NCBI GenBank assembly: GCA_947303085.1
Contig: CAMYXP010000001.1
Span: 620,001-684,000, forward strand
Source: an uncultured Bacteroidales bacterium
GTDB lineage: Bacteria; Bacteroidota; Bacteroidia; Bacteroidales; F082
Reading direction: 5' to 3'
Length of the DNA: 64,000 nt
Every line of letters begins with the position of its first letter. Within the stretch, counting starts at the first letter, position 1. Below the pieces are notes generated by a model. The model saw only the letters and a program-made list of their open reading frames with translations, was not told where the DNA came from and made no database searches. Shown one piece after another: positions 28,593 through 35,036 of the stretch. Position numbers and translations under genes: made by a program.

Positions 28593-29411
28593 ATGCGAAA
28601 AGTTAAATTGTTGATAATCATAGCGTTGTTGCTTTTGTCATGCTCGATGCGAGGGCAGACAAATGGCACTATGCTCGATAATATTGACTTTAACGACAAT
28701 AGTTTGATTGGCACCGACACTTTGAAAAACTCACTTTCGAGGTACATCACTTTGGTGGAGAATAACACCCAGATTCAGACCAAACAGGTGTATGCTTTGA
28801 TTTTGGCGACTGACAATATTTTGAGTCGCTGTGTGAGTTCGTATCCAATGTATAGATTTGTGTATCAATATCTTATATATGGATTTTCGGAGATGGGAGC
28901 TAATGCGGTGGTCGATTATATGGTTAGTTTGCCGTATCTCGAGTATCTCAATGCCGATGCAGGTCAGAGAAATGAGATGTTGCGCATCGCGGAAACTTAC
29001 CGTAGAGTGAAGATAGGTTCTAAAGCGCCTGATATTCAATCTGTTACGATAAATGGACAAGACTTTGATTTGTATGATGACGATGCCGATTACACAGTTG
29101 TACTGTTCTGGTCGTATTCTTGTTCGCATTGCAGAGATTTGATAAAGACTTTTCGATATTTTGTGAGGAAATATGACAATGTTACGCTTGTGACTGTCAA
29201 TGTTTCGGGTGATTTGAAGCAAGTGAAGCGACTGTTGAGACGTTCTCGTCTTTCAAAGCAAATCAACATCTGCGATGGCGATGGCTGGGAGTCGAAGATT
29301 GTTGATGATTACGCCATTGAGATGACACCGTCGATAATTTTGCTTGACAAGAAAAAGACTATTATTGCTAAACCATTGAGTATTAAAGAGATAGTAAGCT
29401 ATATTAAATAA
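28593..29411 (+). CDS. Thioredoxin-fold lipoprotein (TlpA-like)
   Basis: GSKAPDIQSVTINGQDFDLYDDDADYTVVLFWSYSCSHCRDLIKTF, with SCSHC active-site-like motif. Confidence 0.8.
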   Translation: MRKVKLLIIIALLLLSCSMRGQTNGTMLDNIDFNDNSLIGTDTLKNSLSRYITLVENNTQIQTKQVYALILATDNILSRCVSSYPMYRFVYQYLIYGFSEMGANAVVDYMVSLPYLEYLNADAGQRNEMLRIAETYRRVKIGSKAPDIQSVTINGQDFDLYDDDADYTVVLFWSYSCSHCRDLIKTFRYFVRKYDNVTLVTVNVSGDLKQVKRLLRRSRLSKQINICDGDGWESKIVDDYAIEMTPSIILLDKKKTIIAKPLSIKEIVSYIK

Positions 29412-32290
29412 TGAAAAAATTATATTTTTCGATTGTTGTTTTGTTGATTTGTTTTGTGGTCAAGGCTCAGACCGATGAGGATCGTTGGGTTGACTCTGTT
29501 TACAACTCGTTGACGATGGAGCAGCGTGTAGGGCAGCTTATAAACGTGAGGGCTAACTTGCCAAATAAGGCGTATTTCGTTGAGGTTCAAGAACTTATCG
29601 AGAAATATAACATCGGGGGCGTGACATTCTTCCGCACTGATGCCGAGCCTTTGCTGAGGCAGGTGAACCAGTGGCAGTCGTTGGCGCAGACGCCATTGAT
29701 GGTTGGCATCGACGGCGAGTGGGGCTTGGGAATGCGTCTCAACGACGGCATCTCATATCCGTATCAGATGACGCTTGGAGCCATTCAGAATCAACAACTT
29801 ATAGGCGAGATGGGAGCTCAGATCGCCGAACAATGCCGCCGTATCGGTATCAACATCGATTTTGCGCCTGACATCGACGTGAACAACGAGCCGAAAAACC
29901 CGGTCATCGGGATGCGTAGCTTCGGCGAGAACCCGAAAGCGGTGGCGGAACGCGGTACTCAGTACGCTCTCGGCCTTCAGAACAACGGCGTGCTACCTAC
30001 AATGAAGCATTTCCCAGGTCATGGCGACACGAAAAACGACTCGCACGAGACACTCCCGAAGGTGGATAAGAAGCTGAAAGAACTCAAAAAGACAGAATTC
30101 TATCCTTTCGAATACCTAATAAATAAAGGTGTTGCCGGCGCTATGGTGGGACATCTTTACATGCCGGCGATTGAACCTGTGAAAAACCTCTCGTCGTCGA
30201 TTTCGAAGAACGTGGTGACTGGACTTCTGAAAGATGAGATGGGCTTCGACGGCATCATTTTCAGCGACGCGATGGAGATGAAAGGCGCCTACCAGGGCAT
30301 ACATCCTGATGACGTCGGGCTGAGTGCGCTTTTGGCTGGCGTTGACGTGATACTTATGCCGATAAATCCGGAAAAAACCATTCAAAATATTGTAAATCAA
30401 TTGGATAACGTAGAGGTTGCAAAGAGGGTGGAGGAGAGCTGCAAGAAAGTTTTGAAGTATAAATACCGTCTCGGAATCGCTAAATATCAGGCGCAGTCAG
30501 AGATGTCGGTTGACAATGATTTACATCAGGCGAAATATTATAATTTGAGACAAAGGCTTTATAATGAGGCAGTTACGATGATAAGAAACAACAAAGAAGT
30601 GCTACCTCTGACGAAAGACGAGAAGATAGCGGTTGTTACAATCGGGACGACCGACAATGGGGCGAAACGTTTAGCTGGTGAAGGCTATGACGTGGAGTCG
30701 TTTGTCGTTGACAAAAATATTTCTAAGTCAGCTAAAGCAAAGATTATCAATGATTTAAAGAGATTCAAACTCGTTGTTGTCAATGTTCAAAACACTTCGA
30801 TTTATGCTACTAAAAATTTCGGAATAACCGATGAAACCGTTGATTTTGTTAAGACTTTAAGCAAAAACAACAATATCGTTTTCAACCTGTTTGCTTGTCC
30901 GTATGCCTTGAACAAATTCGATTTCAAGAAGTCGCCATTGGCTATCATTATTGGCTATGAAGACACGCAATGTGCAGTAAATGCTGTGGTTGACGTGATG
31001 GTTGGAAATATCAACCCGACAGGTAAGCTGCCTGTCACGATTAGCAGGAAATTCAAGATGGGCGATGGCTTGAGTTTTGAAGGCATGCTGACACCAGAAA
31101 CTTTGTCAGTGGAACTCATTGAAAATGAATATATTAGCAGGGTTGACTCAATAGCCTTGAATGGCATCGAGATTGGCGCTTATCCTGGATGTCAGATTTT
31201 GGCGATGAAAGACGGCAAAGTTATCTACGACAAGTGTTTCGGGCATTTCACTTACGACGGCGACCACGAGGTGCAGCCCGACGATGTTTACGATATCGCG
31301 TCGCTGACGAAGGTTTTTGCCACCACTTTTGCCATCATGAAGCTTTACGACAACGGCAAAATCAGTCTTGAAAGCAAGCTGAGCGATTATTTTCCATATC
31401 TGAAAAATACCGATAAAGGAGATGTAAAGTTGATAGAGATTATGACCCATCAGGCAGGGCTAACTGCTTGGATACCAATATATAAGAACACGATGAAGAA
31501 TGGCAAGCCCGATAATGATTTGTATAGAAAAAACATTGACGAGGATCATACTGTTCGTGTTGCGAAGGACATGTACATCTCGCAGGAATACAAGTTTGAC
31601 ATTGTCGGGACGGTGATTGGGTCGGAGACTTGTGAGAAGAAGTATAAATACAGCGATTTGGGCTTTTATTTCTTGCCGAAAATTGTGGAGATGGTGACGA
31701 ATATGCCGTTTGAGAGGTATCTGGAGGAGAATTTCTACAAGCCTCTGAATCTCAATCATATTTATTATAAACCATTGAGACACATTGAAATAGATAAGAT
31801 TGCCCCGACCGAAAACGATACCTGTTTCAGGATGCAGCTGTTGCGGGGCGATGTTCACGACCAGGCTGCCGCATTGATGGGCGGTGTGGCTGGTCATGCC
31901 GGACTCTTCGCCAACGCGCGCGACCTCGCCGTGATGATGCAGCTGCTTCTGGATGAGGGATATGTCAACAACAGGCAGTTTTTGTCGAGCTACACGATTA
32001 AAAAATTCACGTCGGCACCGTTCAAAGACAATATGAACCGTCGCGGCATAGGCTTCGACAAGCCTGAAGTCGACCCGACGGTGCCTTATTACACGCCGGC
32101 GAAACAGTCGTCGATGAAGAGCTTCGGACATACAGGATTTACTGGCACTTTCGCATGGGCCGACCCTGAAAACGGTCTCATCGTCATATTCCTGTCGAAC
32201 AGGGTTTACCCTGATGCGAGTAATAACAAGCTGTCGCAAAACAACATCAGAACTGAGATACATGAAATGTTTTATGAGGCAGTGAAATAG
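29411..32290 (+). CDS. GH3 beta-N-acetylhexosaminidase fused to a serine hydrolase (beta-lactamase family)
   Basis: GH3: FAPDIDVNNEPKNPVIGMRSFGENP, KHFPGHGDTKNDSHETLP, FSDAMEMKGAY. Serine hydrolase: YDIASLTKVFATTFA (SxxK), YSDLGFYFL, FGHTGFTGT. Confidence 0.93.
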   Translation: MKKLYFSIVVLLICFVVKAQTDEDRWVDSVYNSLTMEQRVGQLINVRANLPNKAYFVEVQELIEKYNIGGVTFFRTDAEPLLRQVNQWQSLAQTPLMVGIDGEWGLGMRLNDGISYPYQMTLGAIQNQQLIGEMGAQIAEQCRRIGINIDFAPDIDVNNEPKNPVIGMRSFGENPKAVAERGTQYALGLQNNGVLPTMKHFPGHGDTKNDSHETLPKVDKKLKELKKTEFYPFEYLINKGVAGAMVGHLYMPAIEPVKNLSSSISKNVVTGLLKDEMGFDGIIFSDAMEMKGAYQGIHPDDVGLSALLAGVDVILMPINPEKTIQNIVNQLDNVEVAKRVEESCKKVLKYKYRLGIAKYQAQSEMSVDNDLHQAKYYNLRQRLYNEAVTMIRNNKEVLPLTKDEKIAVVTIGTTDNGAKRLAGEGYDVESFVVDKNISKSAKAKIINDLKRFKLVVVNVQNTSIYATKNFGITDETVDFVKTLSKNNNIVFNLFACPYALNKFDFKKSPLAIIIGYEDTQCAVNAVVDVMVGNINPTGKLPVTISRKFKMGDGLSFEGMLTPETLSVELIENEYISRVDSIALNGIEIGAYPGCQILAMKDGKVIYDKCFGHFTYDGDHEVQPDDVYDIASLTKVFATTFAIMKLYDNGKISLESKLSDYFPYLKNTDKGDVKLIEIMTHQAGLTAWIPIYKNTMKNGKPDNDLYRKNIDEDHTVRVAKDMYISQEYKFDIVGTVIGSETCEKKYKYSDLGFYFLPKIVEMVTNMPFERYLEENFYKPLNLNHIYYKPLRHIEIDKIAPTENDTCFRMQLLRGDVHDQAAALMGGVAGHAGLFANARDLAVMMQLLLDEGYVNNRQFLSSYTIKKFTSAPFKDNMNRRGIGFDKPEVDPTVPYYTPAKQSSMKSFGHTGFTGTFAWADPENGLIVIFLSNRVYPDASNNKLSQNNIRTEIHEMFYEAVK

Positions 32291-32404: not shown

Positions 32405-33763
32405 ATGTCAAATCAGGCGAAATATGATTCTCTGAGAGAGCAATTTGATTCTTTCATCTTCCAGAATTACCATTATTCTGTCGAAAACGGGGACTTTTTT
32501 GCCAGTTTTGACTTTGTTTTATCCCCAGAAAACACCTTTCATCCTTGTTTCCGCATACCTGCTCGCAGTTTTTATCACTGGGATTCGATCCCGAAGCCCC
32601 TTCTCGACAATCTCGTCTTCCACATCGGAATGATTGAGCTTATCAGCTATTGGAAAATAGCTTGTCCGAAAAAGGTGATAATCAAGCCTTTTGCATTGGA
32701 TGAGGAACAGATTCGCTGGTGGAAGAAATTGTATTTCAACGGGTTAGGGGAATTTTTCTATGTCAATGGGATTGAGACGAGTATTGATGAGTTTATGGAA
32801 CTCGTTAATGATGATGAGGTTCCTCGCTGTACTCGGTATGACAGCGCTTTCAAACTGACGGAGCAGACATTGATTCCAGTTGGCGGAGGCAAAGACTCTG
32901 TCGTTACCCTTGAAATGTTGAAAAACCGTGTTCCTGCTATCCCATTGATTATCAACCCTCGAGGAGCCACAAACGAATGTGTGGCGGCGGCTGGGTTTAC
33001 GGAGGAACAGACAGCCATCATCAAGCGCACACTCGACCCTACGATGTTGAAAATGAACGCCGAAGGCTATCTCAACGGGCATACTCCGTTCTCGGCAATG
33101 CTGGCGTTTTATACCATTTTAATAGGTTTTGCGACGAAATCGAAATACATCGCGCTGTCGAACGAGTCGTCGGCCAACGAACCAACGGTGCCTGACACTG
33201 AAATCAACCATCAGTACAGCAAGTCGGTGGCTTTTGAAAATGATTTCAGACATTATGTGACTAAATACATAAACGCTGATATTCAATACTTTAGCTTCTT
33301 GCGACCGCTGAATGAACTTCAGATCGCAAAATTATTCAGTCGTGCCAAGGCATACCGCAAAGTGTTCAAGAGCTGCAATGCAGGCTCGAAGACCGACTCG
33401 TGGTGCGGCAGATGTCCGAAATGTCTGTTCACTTGGCTGGCGTTGTCGCCGTTCATCTCGAGATCTGAACTGACCGACATCTTTGGCAAAGACTTATTGA
33501 GTGACAATAACTTACGTCCGATTCTCGACCAACTTGACGGCTCCGTTGAGGTGAAGCCGTTTGAGTGCGTCGGTACAGTGGGTGAAGTAAGAGCCTGTGT
33601 CAACAAAATCCTGCAAACCGATGATAATCTGAAAGATACGATACTTGAAGGCGTCGCGCAAACCGACGACTTAACCGTTGAGGATTACGTGGCGCAGTTC
33701 GACGACGGCAACAATCTGCCTGAATCGTTCAAAAACATCTTGAAGGAGGGCTTGAATGCTTAG
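32405..33763 (+). CDS. murL: MurL-like UDP-MurNAc-L-Ala-L-Glu epimerase (PP-loop motif protein)
   Basis: LIPVGGGKDSVVTLEML, ALSNESSANEPTVPDTEINHQYSKSVAFE, WCGRCPKCLFTWLALSPFI; immediately upstream of a MurD-type ligase. Family match by recall. Confidence 0.72.
   Translation: MSNQAKYDSLREQFDSFIFQNYHYSVENGDFFASFDFVLSPENTFHPCFRIPARSFYHWDSIPKPLLDNLVFHIGMIELISYWKIACPKKVIIKPFALDEEQIRWWKKLYFNGLGEFFYVNGIETSIDEFMELVNDDEVPRCTRYDSAFKLTEQTLIPVGGGKDSVVTLEMLKNRVPAIPLIINPRGATNECVAAAGFTEEQTAIIKRTLDPTMLKMNAEGYLNGHTPFSAMLAFYTILIGFATKSKYIALSNESSANEPTVPDTEINHQYSKSVAFENDFRHYVTKYINADIQYFSFLRPLNELQIAKLFSRAKAYRKVFKSCNAGSKTDSWCGRCPKCLFTWLALSPFISRSELTDIFGKDLLSDNNLRPILDQLDGSVEVKPFECVGTVGEVRACVNKILQTDDNLKDTILEGVAQTDDLTVEDYVAQFDDGNNLPESFKNILKEGLNA
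32816..32845 (+). repeat. Dispersed repeat inside the murL-like ORF (encodes EVPRCTRYDS)
   Basis: gaggttcctcgctgtactcggtatgacagc; 26/30 identical to gagattcctcgcttcgctcggtatgacagc in the GH97 gene (minus strand, 50822-50851). Confidence 0.85.
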
Positions 33764-35036
33764 CATCAACACCATATTCAAACGCCTGCGCGGCAAACGC
33801 ATCCTGATTCTCGGATTCGGACGCGAGGGCAAGTCGTCGCTGGCGTTTATCCAAAAGTTTCTGCCTCATGCCATCGTTGGCATAGCCGATAAAAACGAGT
33901 CGGCTTTTAAGGATTTAAAAACTGATGCTAAATTATACTTCGGTGACAACTACTTCGATGCCGTCAACGATTACGACATTGTTCTTAAAACTCCTGGTAT
34001 CTCGTTGAAAGACAAAGATATAGACCTCTCAAAGATAACATCGCAAACTGATTTGTTTCTTGAGGAGTTTCATAATCAGATAATAGGAATCACAGGCACC
34101 AAGGGCAAATCGACTACTTCCACCTTGATTTACCATCTTCTGAAAGAGTCGGGAAAAGACGCGATTTTGGCTGGAAACATTGGTATTCCGATATTTGATA
34201 TCATTGAGAAAATCAACACAAACACCATAATAGTTTTTGAACTTTCGGCGCATCAGCTGCAGTTTATCCATCGCAGCCCGCACATCGGCATATTGCTCAA
34301 TGTCTTTGAGGAACATCTCGATCATTTTGGCACTTTTGAGGCTTATCGCGATGCTAAGTTGAACATTATCAGAAAGATGGGGGATGTGGACTGGGCTGTC
34401 ACCAACGACGAGTTCTGCTACGAAGCGGATCAGATGATGGTGCGTTCGCTTAATTATCAGTACTACGATTTTGGTGTCAATTGGGATGAGATTCCATTGA
34501 AAGGCGACCATAACCGATTGAATGTCAAAGCGGCGCTATGCGCTATCTATGCTTTCGGCATCCCGGTCGACGAGGTTTTGCCGCATCTTTACACCTTCCA
34601 GCCGCTCGAACATCGTCAGGAGCTGGTTGGTACTTTCGGCGGAGTGACGTTCTACAACGATAGTATTTCCACTATCCCACAGGCGGCTATCGCGGCGATG
34701 CAGACCATAAAAAACGTGACGTTTCTGCTTCTCGGCGGCTTCGATCGTGAGATAGACTATACACCTTTAATCGATTATCTTACAAAGCATCCTGTCAAGC
34801 ACATTTTATATACCGGCAAGGCTGGAAATCGAATGTTTGAGATGTTGCAAAAAGCTGGTTATCAAGGAGATATAAAAAATTTCAAAGACCTCAACGAAGC
34901 CTTTGAAATTCTTAAAAGTTTATCAAAACCCGGCGATGTGTGCCTGCTTTCGCCTGCCGCCGCCAGTTACGATCAGTACCGTAATTTCGAAGAACGCGGA
35001 CGTCTCTTCAAGAAGCTGGCGACTGATTTCTCCTGA
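33756..35036 (+). CDS. murD: MurD-type UDP-N-acetylmuramoyl-L-alanine--glutamate ligase (MurD2 candidate)
   Basis: GFGREGKSSLAF, GITGTKGKSTTSTLIYHLL, ELSAHQLQFI, EEHLDHFGTFEAYRDAK, YNDSISTIPQA, LLSPAAASYDQYRNFEERGRLFK; 8-nt overlap with the murL-like gene. Confidence 0.85.
   Translation: MLSINTIFKRLRGKRILILGFGREGKSSLAFIQKFLPHAIVGIADKNESAFKDLKTDAKLYFGDNYFDAVNDYDIVLKTPGISLKDKDIDLSKITSQTDLFLEEFHNQIIGITGTKGKSTTSTLIYHLLKESGKDAILAGNIGIPIFDIIEKINTNTIIVFELSAHQLQFIHRSPHIGILLNVFEEHLDHFGTFEAYRDAKLNIIRKMGDVDWAVTNDEFCYEADQMMVRSLNYQYYDFGVNWDEIPLKGDHNRLNVKAALCAIYAFGIPVDEVLPHLYTFQPLEHRQELVGTFGGVTFYNDSISTIPQAAIAAMQTIKNVTFLLLGGFDREIDYTPLIDYLTKHPVKHILYTGKAGNRMFEMLQKAGYQGDIKNFKDLNEAFEILKSLSKPGDVCLLSPAAASYDQYRNFEERGRLFKKLATDFS

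Follow-up and report, generated by a model that had tools for sequence, protein, structure and literature searches.

A probable MurD2-MurL branch of peptidoglycan precursor synthesis in Bacteroidales, with natural fusions and a stand-alone MurD C-terminal domain

Introduction

The closest described system is the MurD2-MurL pair of Xanthomonas oryzae (XOO_1320/XOO_1319; Feng et al. 2017, reviewed in PMC8788868). The use of L-Glu by X. oryzae MurD2 is set by E197 and R358, and the double change E197D/R358K switches the enzyme to D-Glu; in Escherichia coli MurD, the substitution K319T leads to acceptance of L-Glu (PMC8788868). MurL has no known conserved domains, and an adenylation mechanism was proposed for it by its discoverers from the formation of AMP (PMC8788868, PMC5808125). 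The hosts listed in two papers on the pathway are Gammaproteobacteria, Alphaproteobacteria and Actinobacteria, with no Bacteroidota among them (PMC8788868, PMC5808125). The route is an alternative to an essential pathway targeted by antibiotics and had previously been reported from relatively few genera.

Here, a gene pair was analyzed in a stretch of 64,000 nucleotides (the window) from an uncultured Bacteroidales bacterium. We interpret the pair as the MurD2-MurL branch of peptidoglycan precursor synthesis, with a probability of about 0.93. Judging from the genome sequence, this bacterium of gut/rumen type very probably builds its wall with L-glutamate that is attached first and inverted afterwards, the usual D-glutamate enzyme being absent.

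Results

The murL-murD2 gene pair

Two ORFs of 452 and 426 aa lie on the + strand of the window (Table 1) and overlap by 8 nt, from the ATG of murD2 at 33756 to the end of the murL TAG at 33763. In the window's genus both genes are under purifying selection (median dN/dS of 0.08 for murL and 0.08 for murD2), and therefore the pair is not a chance arrangement of reading frames. The fusion protein encoded upstream of murL was also found near MurL in 24 of the best 80 named loci; it is probably a wall-turnover enzyme, forming part of the genomic context and lying outside the MurD2-MurL route.

Table 1. Positions of the genes, motifs and residues discussed (window coordinates, except for the last line).
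Feature	Position	Strand	Basis or remark
GH3 (NagZ-like) + serine-hydrolase/PBP4B-like (beta-lactamase) fusion	29411..32290	+	Upstream of murL; Pfam/NCBIfam
MurL homologue	32405..33763	+	NF041275 match, X. sacchari identity, AF2 model
PP-loop GGGKDS, MurL residues 160-165	32882..32899	+	Invariant in 27 Bacteroidales MurLs and X. sacchari
Cys cluster C324-x9-C334GRC337PKC340	33374..33424	+	Cysteines invariant (27 Bacteroidales MurLs, X. sacchari)
AGGAGG, Shine-Dalgarno-like, for the murD2 start	33744..33749	+	Inside murL; 6 nt upstream of the start
MurD2 ligase	33756..35036	+	TIGR01087 316 bits; clade with X. sacchari MurD2
E186 = E197 of X. oryzae MurD2 (D182 of E. coli MurD), L/D-Glu switch	34311..34313	+	Alignment; mutagenesis PMC8788868
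I304, at the place of E. coli K319	34665..34667	+	Alignment; PMC8788868
R331 = R358 of X. oryzae MurD2 (K348 of E. coli MurD), L/D-Glu switch	34746..34748	+	Alignment; mutagenesis PMC8788868
178-aa ORF	G000:C1:363478-364011 (L010:8478-9011), outside the window		9 nt after mraY, 3 nt before ftsW

The MurL model NF041275 covers almost all of the first ORF (E=7.5e-77, 258.7 bits). This score is below the curated cut-off of 700 bits, which defines an equivalog of Xanthomonadales only, so that the protein is outside that equivalog yet homologous along nearly its whole length. Its identity to the annotated MurL of Xanthomonas sacchari is 30%, and the two proteins share 60 positions at which 97% or more of the 73 alignment rows agree, including GGGKDS, SNE, NHQ, SK and C324/C334/C337/C340. 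The residues of the PP-loop, of SNE-x-SA, of NHQ-x-SK and of the Cys cluster are thus conserved, as in the broad MurL family. The GGGKDS loop is expected to be the site of ATP binding and adenylation, and the four cysteines may form a metal site. The motif SNESSANEPTVPDTEINHQYSKS occupies residues 252-274 and CGRCPKCLF residues 334-342. The original prediction, which had described a PP-loop ORF with these motifs overlapping a MurD-type ORF by 8 nt, was exact in coordinates and motifs; its naming of the first ORF as MurL agrees with the homology to the Xanthomonas protein, with the reservation that the strong model match falls short of the Xanthomonadales cut-off, and its description of the host as Bacteroidales-like fits the nearest named relatives, which are Bacteroidales MAGs.

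A Pfam search with the first ORF gave no domain above threshold, and a search of the PDB with its sequence alone gave no match. The AF2 model (pLDDT 92.6) matched PDB folds weakly in Foldseek, with a best E of 0.03, the matches including NadE, argininosuccinate synthase and GMP synthase; profile searches returned only weak matches to the PP-loop proteins TtuA/MnmA over the loop segment. These matches suggest a PP-loop fold and fit the adenylation mechanism proposed for MurL from AMP formation. A relationship with QueC was not significant in hhalign (probability 5%), and the local likeness in the C-terminal Cys motif, which is statistically weak, is no more than a lead.

Glutamate specificity and ancestry of the ligase

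The second ORF passes the cut-off of the canonical MurD model TIGR01087 (316 bits against 212). At the three positions associated with the choice of glutamate isomer, the same letters were found in X. sacchari MurD2 (E206, R367 and I339) and in the MurDs linked to MurL, with E in 105/105, I in 105/105 and R in 104/104; one MurL-containing genome, G034, departs from this pattern with D-I-R. By contrast, all 30 MurDs sampled from genomes with MurI have D/K/K at positions 182/319/348, a combination that the window ligase, with E/I/R, does not have. A tree of 46 ligases placed every MurD2, including that of Xanthomonas, on one side of a branch with support of 100/99, and the canonical MurDs of the same MurL-containing genomes on the opposite side. 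Common ancestry with Xanthomonas MurD2 is therefore strongly indicated, though not immune to artefact, as the Xanthomonas branch is long.

The genome that carries the window (G000; 2.31 Mb, 12 contigs, 99.88% complete) contains no MurI and no other member of the Asp/Glu racemase family according to TIGR00067 or PF01177, models matched by 10/14 control genomes. Its sole PF01063 aminotransferase is the branched-chain IlvE, and hence the three models revealed no other synthesis of D-Glu. The window ligase is its only full-length MurD; of the weaker MurD matches, those checked proved to be the dcw-encoded MurE and MurC and, on contig C3, a MurC/Mpl-like ligase. With murE, mraY, ftsW, murG and murC in its dcw cluster, the organism has the equipment for making peptidoglycan precursors. 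The proposals that the ligase is a MurD2 and that a bypass of MurI of the Xanthomonas type operates here are thus borne out at the level of gene content: MurI is absent, the sole full-length MurD is of the E/I/R type and groups with Xanthomonas MurD2, and the dcw cluster, instead of a second complete murD, has only an ORF for the C-terminal domain between mraY and ftsW.

Distribution and coupling of the genes

Among 198 genomes of the order, MurL was detected in 68 (one of them truncated at a contig edge) and MurI above the cut-off in 120, while none had both and ten had neither. The mutual exclusion is significant (Fisher p~1e-42), a value inflated by relatedness, though the pattern spans many families, and MurI above the cut-off was found in 0/50 further MurL-containing genomes. 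The MurD2-MurL pair thus turns out to be the predicted replacement of the usual D-glutamate route in about a third of the sampled genomes of the order. Of 297 genomes sampled across the phylum, those listed being mostly complete ones of other orders, only the window's genome had MurL, besides two marginal matches. The best 80 named MurL loci were nearly all from Bacteroidales/Bacteroidetes MAGs, many of them from rumen, gut and lakes.

MurD2 adjoins MurL or is fused to it in 108/111 loci, with an overlap in at least 78, as in the window, and a single frame in 10. The fused ORFs encode about 876-996 aa (L017, L018, L028, L053, L058, L062, L097, L104, L117 and L122). The two genes are apart in the lineages G001, G120, G071, G492 and G050.

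Ten genomes lack both MurI above the cut-off and an intact MurL (G015, G075, G088, G118, G126, G127, G154, G179, G187 and G193), and a canonical D/K/K MurD is present in nine of them. G015 had no MurD match either, though it is 98% complete. In G075 and G179, a protein resembling D-amino-acid transaminases scored under the family cut-off. Such a protein, also below the cut-offs, was seen in G073 when a few MurL-containing genomes were inspected for aminotransferases as a source of D-Glu.

Outside these samples, a distant MurL-like hypothetical protein (27-30% identity) is encoded on Pseudonocardia plasmids (L156:2764-4164 and two other records); in the single locus inspected, none of its neighbours was annotated as MurD. 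MurL and MurD2 are also carried by MT836755.1 (L155:3881-6536), an unannotated 8.9-kb scaffold from human faeces labeled "Bacteriophage sp.", which is probably a bacterial contig rather than a phage.

Fate of the canonical MurD

The slot of the canonical murD in related genomes (mraY-x-ftsW) is occupied in the window's genome by the 178-aa ORF of Table 1. It matches residues of about 264-423 of canonical MurD (84 bits, 31%) and scores just below the Pfam cut-off for the Mur ligase C domain. The match of its model to solved MurDs (E 1e-10) is likewise to their C-terminal domain, and the ORF has neither the ATP-binding nor the central domain. Including this one, ORFs of 176-187 aa for the C-terminal domain were found in 32 MurL-containing genomes, 27 from the order sample (18 families) and five additional genomes closely related to that of the window; two apparent cases that reach the contig edge (G107 and G095) were dropped from the counts. 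Another 33 MurL-containing genomes keep a canonical dcw MurD with its catalytic residues and D/K/K in 33/33, one copy starting near a contig end. MurL-MurD2 occurs together with an intact D-Glu-type MurD and without MurI in G119, G196, G050 and 30 others of the order, and such a MurD needs a source of D-Glu.

The possibility that the 178-aa ORF is a decaying pseudogene was rejected by the constant length, the intact frames and the median dN/dS of the C-terminal-domain ORF, about 0.10 among the window's close relatives in the genus, with dS near saturation; this value is similar to those of murL and murD2 and marks the ORF as a gene that is kept. Full-length and truncated dcw MurDs occur side by side in five families (f27, f35, f50, f74 and f95), which makes a single origin of the truncation seem unlikely, but no more than 2-3 changes are forced by the starred branches of the tree. 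Most of the truncated ORFs begin at a Met that full-length MurDs have as well, which may explain their common length: a Met at position 256 was found in 31/33 canonical MurDs of MurL-containing genomes and in 21/30 of those with MurI. Several of the C-terminal-domain ORFs lack the equivalents of K319, T321 or K348, so they are unlikely to act as ligases and may instead have a structural or regulatory function.

Discussion

In the proposed route, L-glutamate would be joined to the precursor first by MurD2 and its stereochemistry flipped later by MurL. As a PP-loop enzyme, MurL would adenylate the alpha-carboxylate of the attached L-Glu with ATP, giving AMP, and this adenylation would acidify the alpha-proton. 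The pair would stand in for glutamate racemase and, in the window's genome, for the canonical MurD as well. The use of L-Glu by the ligase and the ATP-dependent epimerisation by MurL are predicted from homology and from the residues, and it is in this way that we infer the two reactions and their chemistry.

It is very unlikely that the pair consists of an ordinary MurD using D-Glu and a PP-loop protein with some other function, with D-Glu coming from a racemase that escaped recognition, from a D-amino-acid aminotransferase or from the environment. The ligase does pass the TIGR01087 equivalog cut-off, and D-Glu may be available in gut communities, but its specificity residues are E/I/R, it belongs to the clade of Xanthomonas MurD2, the genome has neither MurI nor any other member of the Asp/Glu racemase family, its one PF01063 protein is IlvE, and the MurL-MurD2 fusions tie both steps together. 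The loss of MurI would be explained too if MurL were a PP-loop racemase of free glutamate and MurD2 tolerated either isomer; as X. oryzae MurL showed no racemisation of Glu and has the UDP-linked dipeptide as its substrate (PMC8788868), and as the specificity residues indicate ligation of L-Glu first, this is the least probable explanation of those weighed here. The absence of MurI above the cut-off from every MurL-containing genome tested, together with the finding that the window's genome has no complete MurD besides the ligase of the pair, also makes it highly improbable, a little more so than an ordinary D-Glu ligase, that the pair serves a side pathway (a natural product or a modified wall) rather than bulk peptidoglycan, despite the canonical MurD that is also intact in about half of the MurL-containing genomes.

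That half counts against the MurD2-MurL interpretation in its simplest form, since a story of simple replacement fails to explain genomes that keep a D-Glu-type MurD; as a guess, they may use it for the salvage of D-Glu. For the others, we see an even chance that, after MurD2-MurL took over, the dcw MurD was trimmed repeatedly, at the same boundary, to a surviving non-ligase C-terminal domain. Located between mraY and ftsW, the stand-alone domain may be a scaffold or regulator of Mur or divisome enzymes, which, if true, would be a second, non-catalytic job of MurD. Its conservation makes a non-catalytic role of MurD in the division and cell-wall cluster testable.

The pathway itself is known, and what is apparently new is its broad host range in Bacteroidales, the natural fusions and the fate of the canonical MurD. 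Our literature search, confined to papers outside subscription, found no report of the Bacteroidales branch, of fusions or of the stand-alone MurD domain. Since Bacteroidales MurD2s pass the canonical MurD model, they can be misannotated as D-Glu ligases.

Compared with known proteins, MurL shares the GGGKDS loop with the PP-loop ATP pyrophosphatases (QueC, TtuA/MnmA, NadE and ArgG), and its C-terminal Cys pattern resembles that of QueC, but there is no significant full-length similarity to these enzymes. MurD2 has in common with canonical MurD (TIGR01087) the three-domain Mur ligase fold and the equivalents of the catalytic E157/H183/K198, and differs from it at the glutamate/nucleotide site, where E/I/R takes the place of D/K/K, in its separate clade and in its location outside the dcw cluster. 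The X. oryzae route has the same gene pair, catalytic motifs, L-Glu specificity residues and absence of MurI as the window, and X. sacchari has the same murL-murD2 order with overlapping ends. By contrast with that route, the Bacteroidales branch has natural MurL-MurD2 fusions and a MurL of 30% identity, and its members keep the canonical MurD or its C-terminal domain in the dcw cluster.
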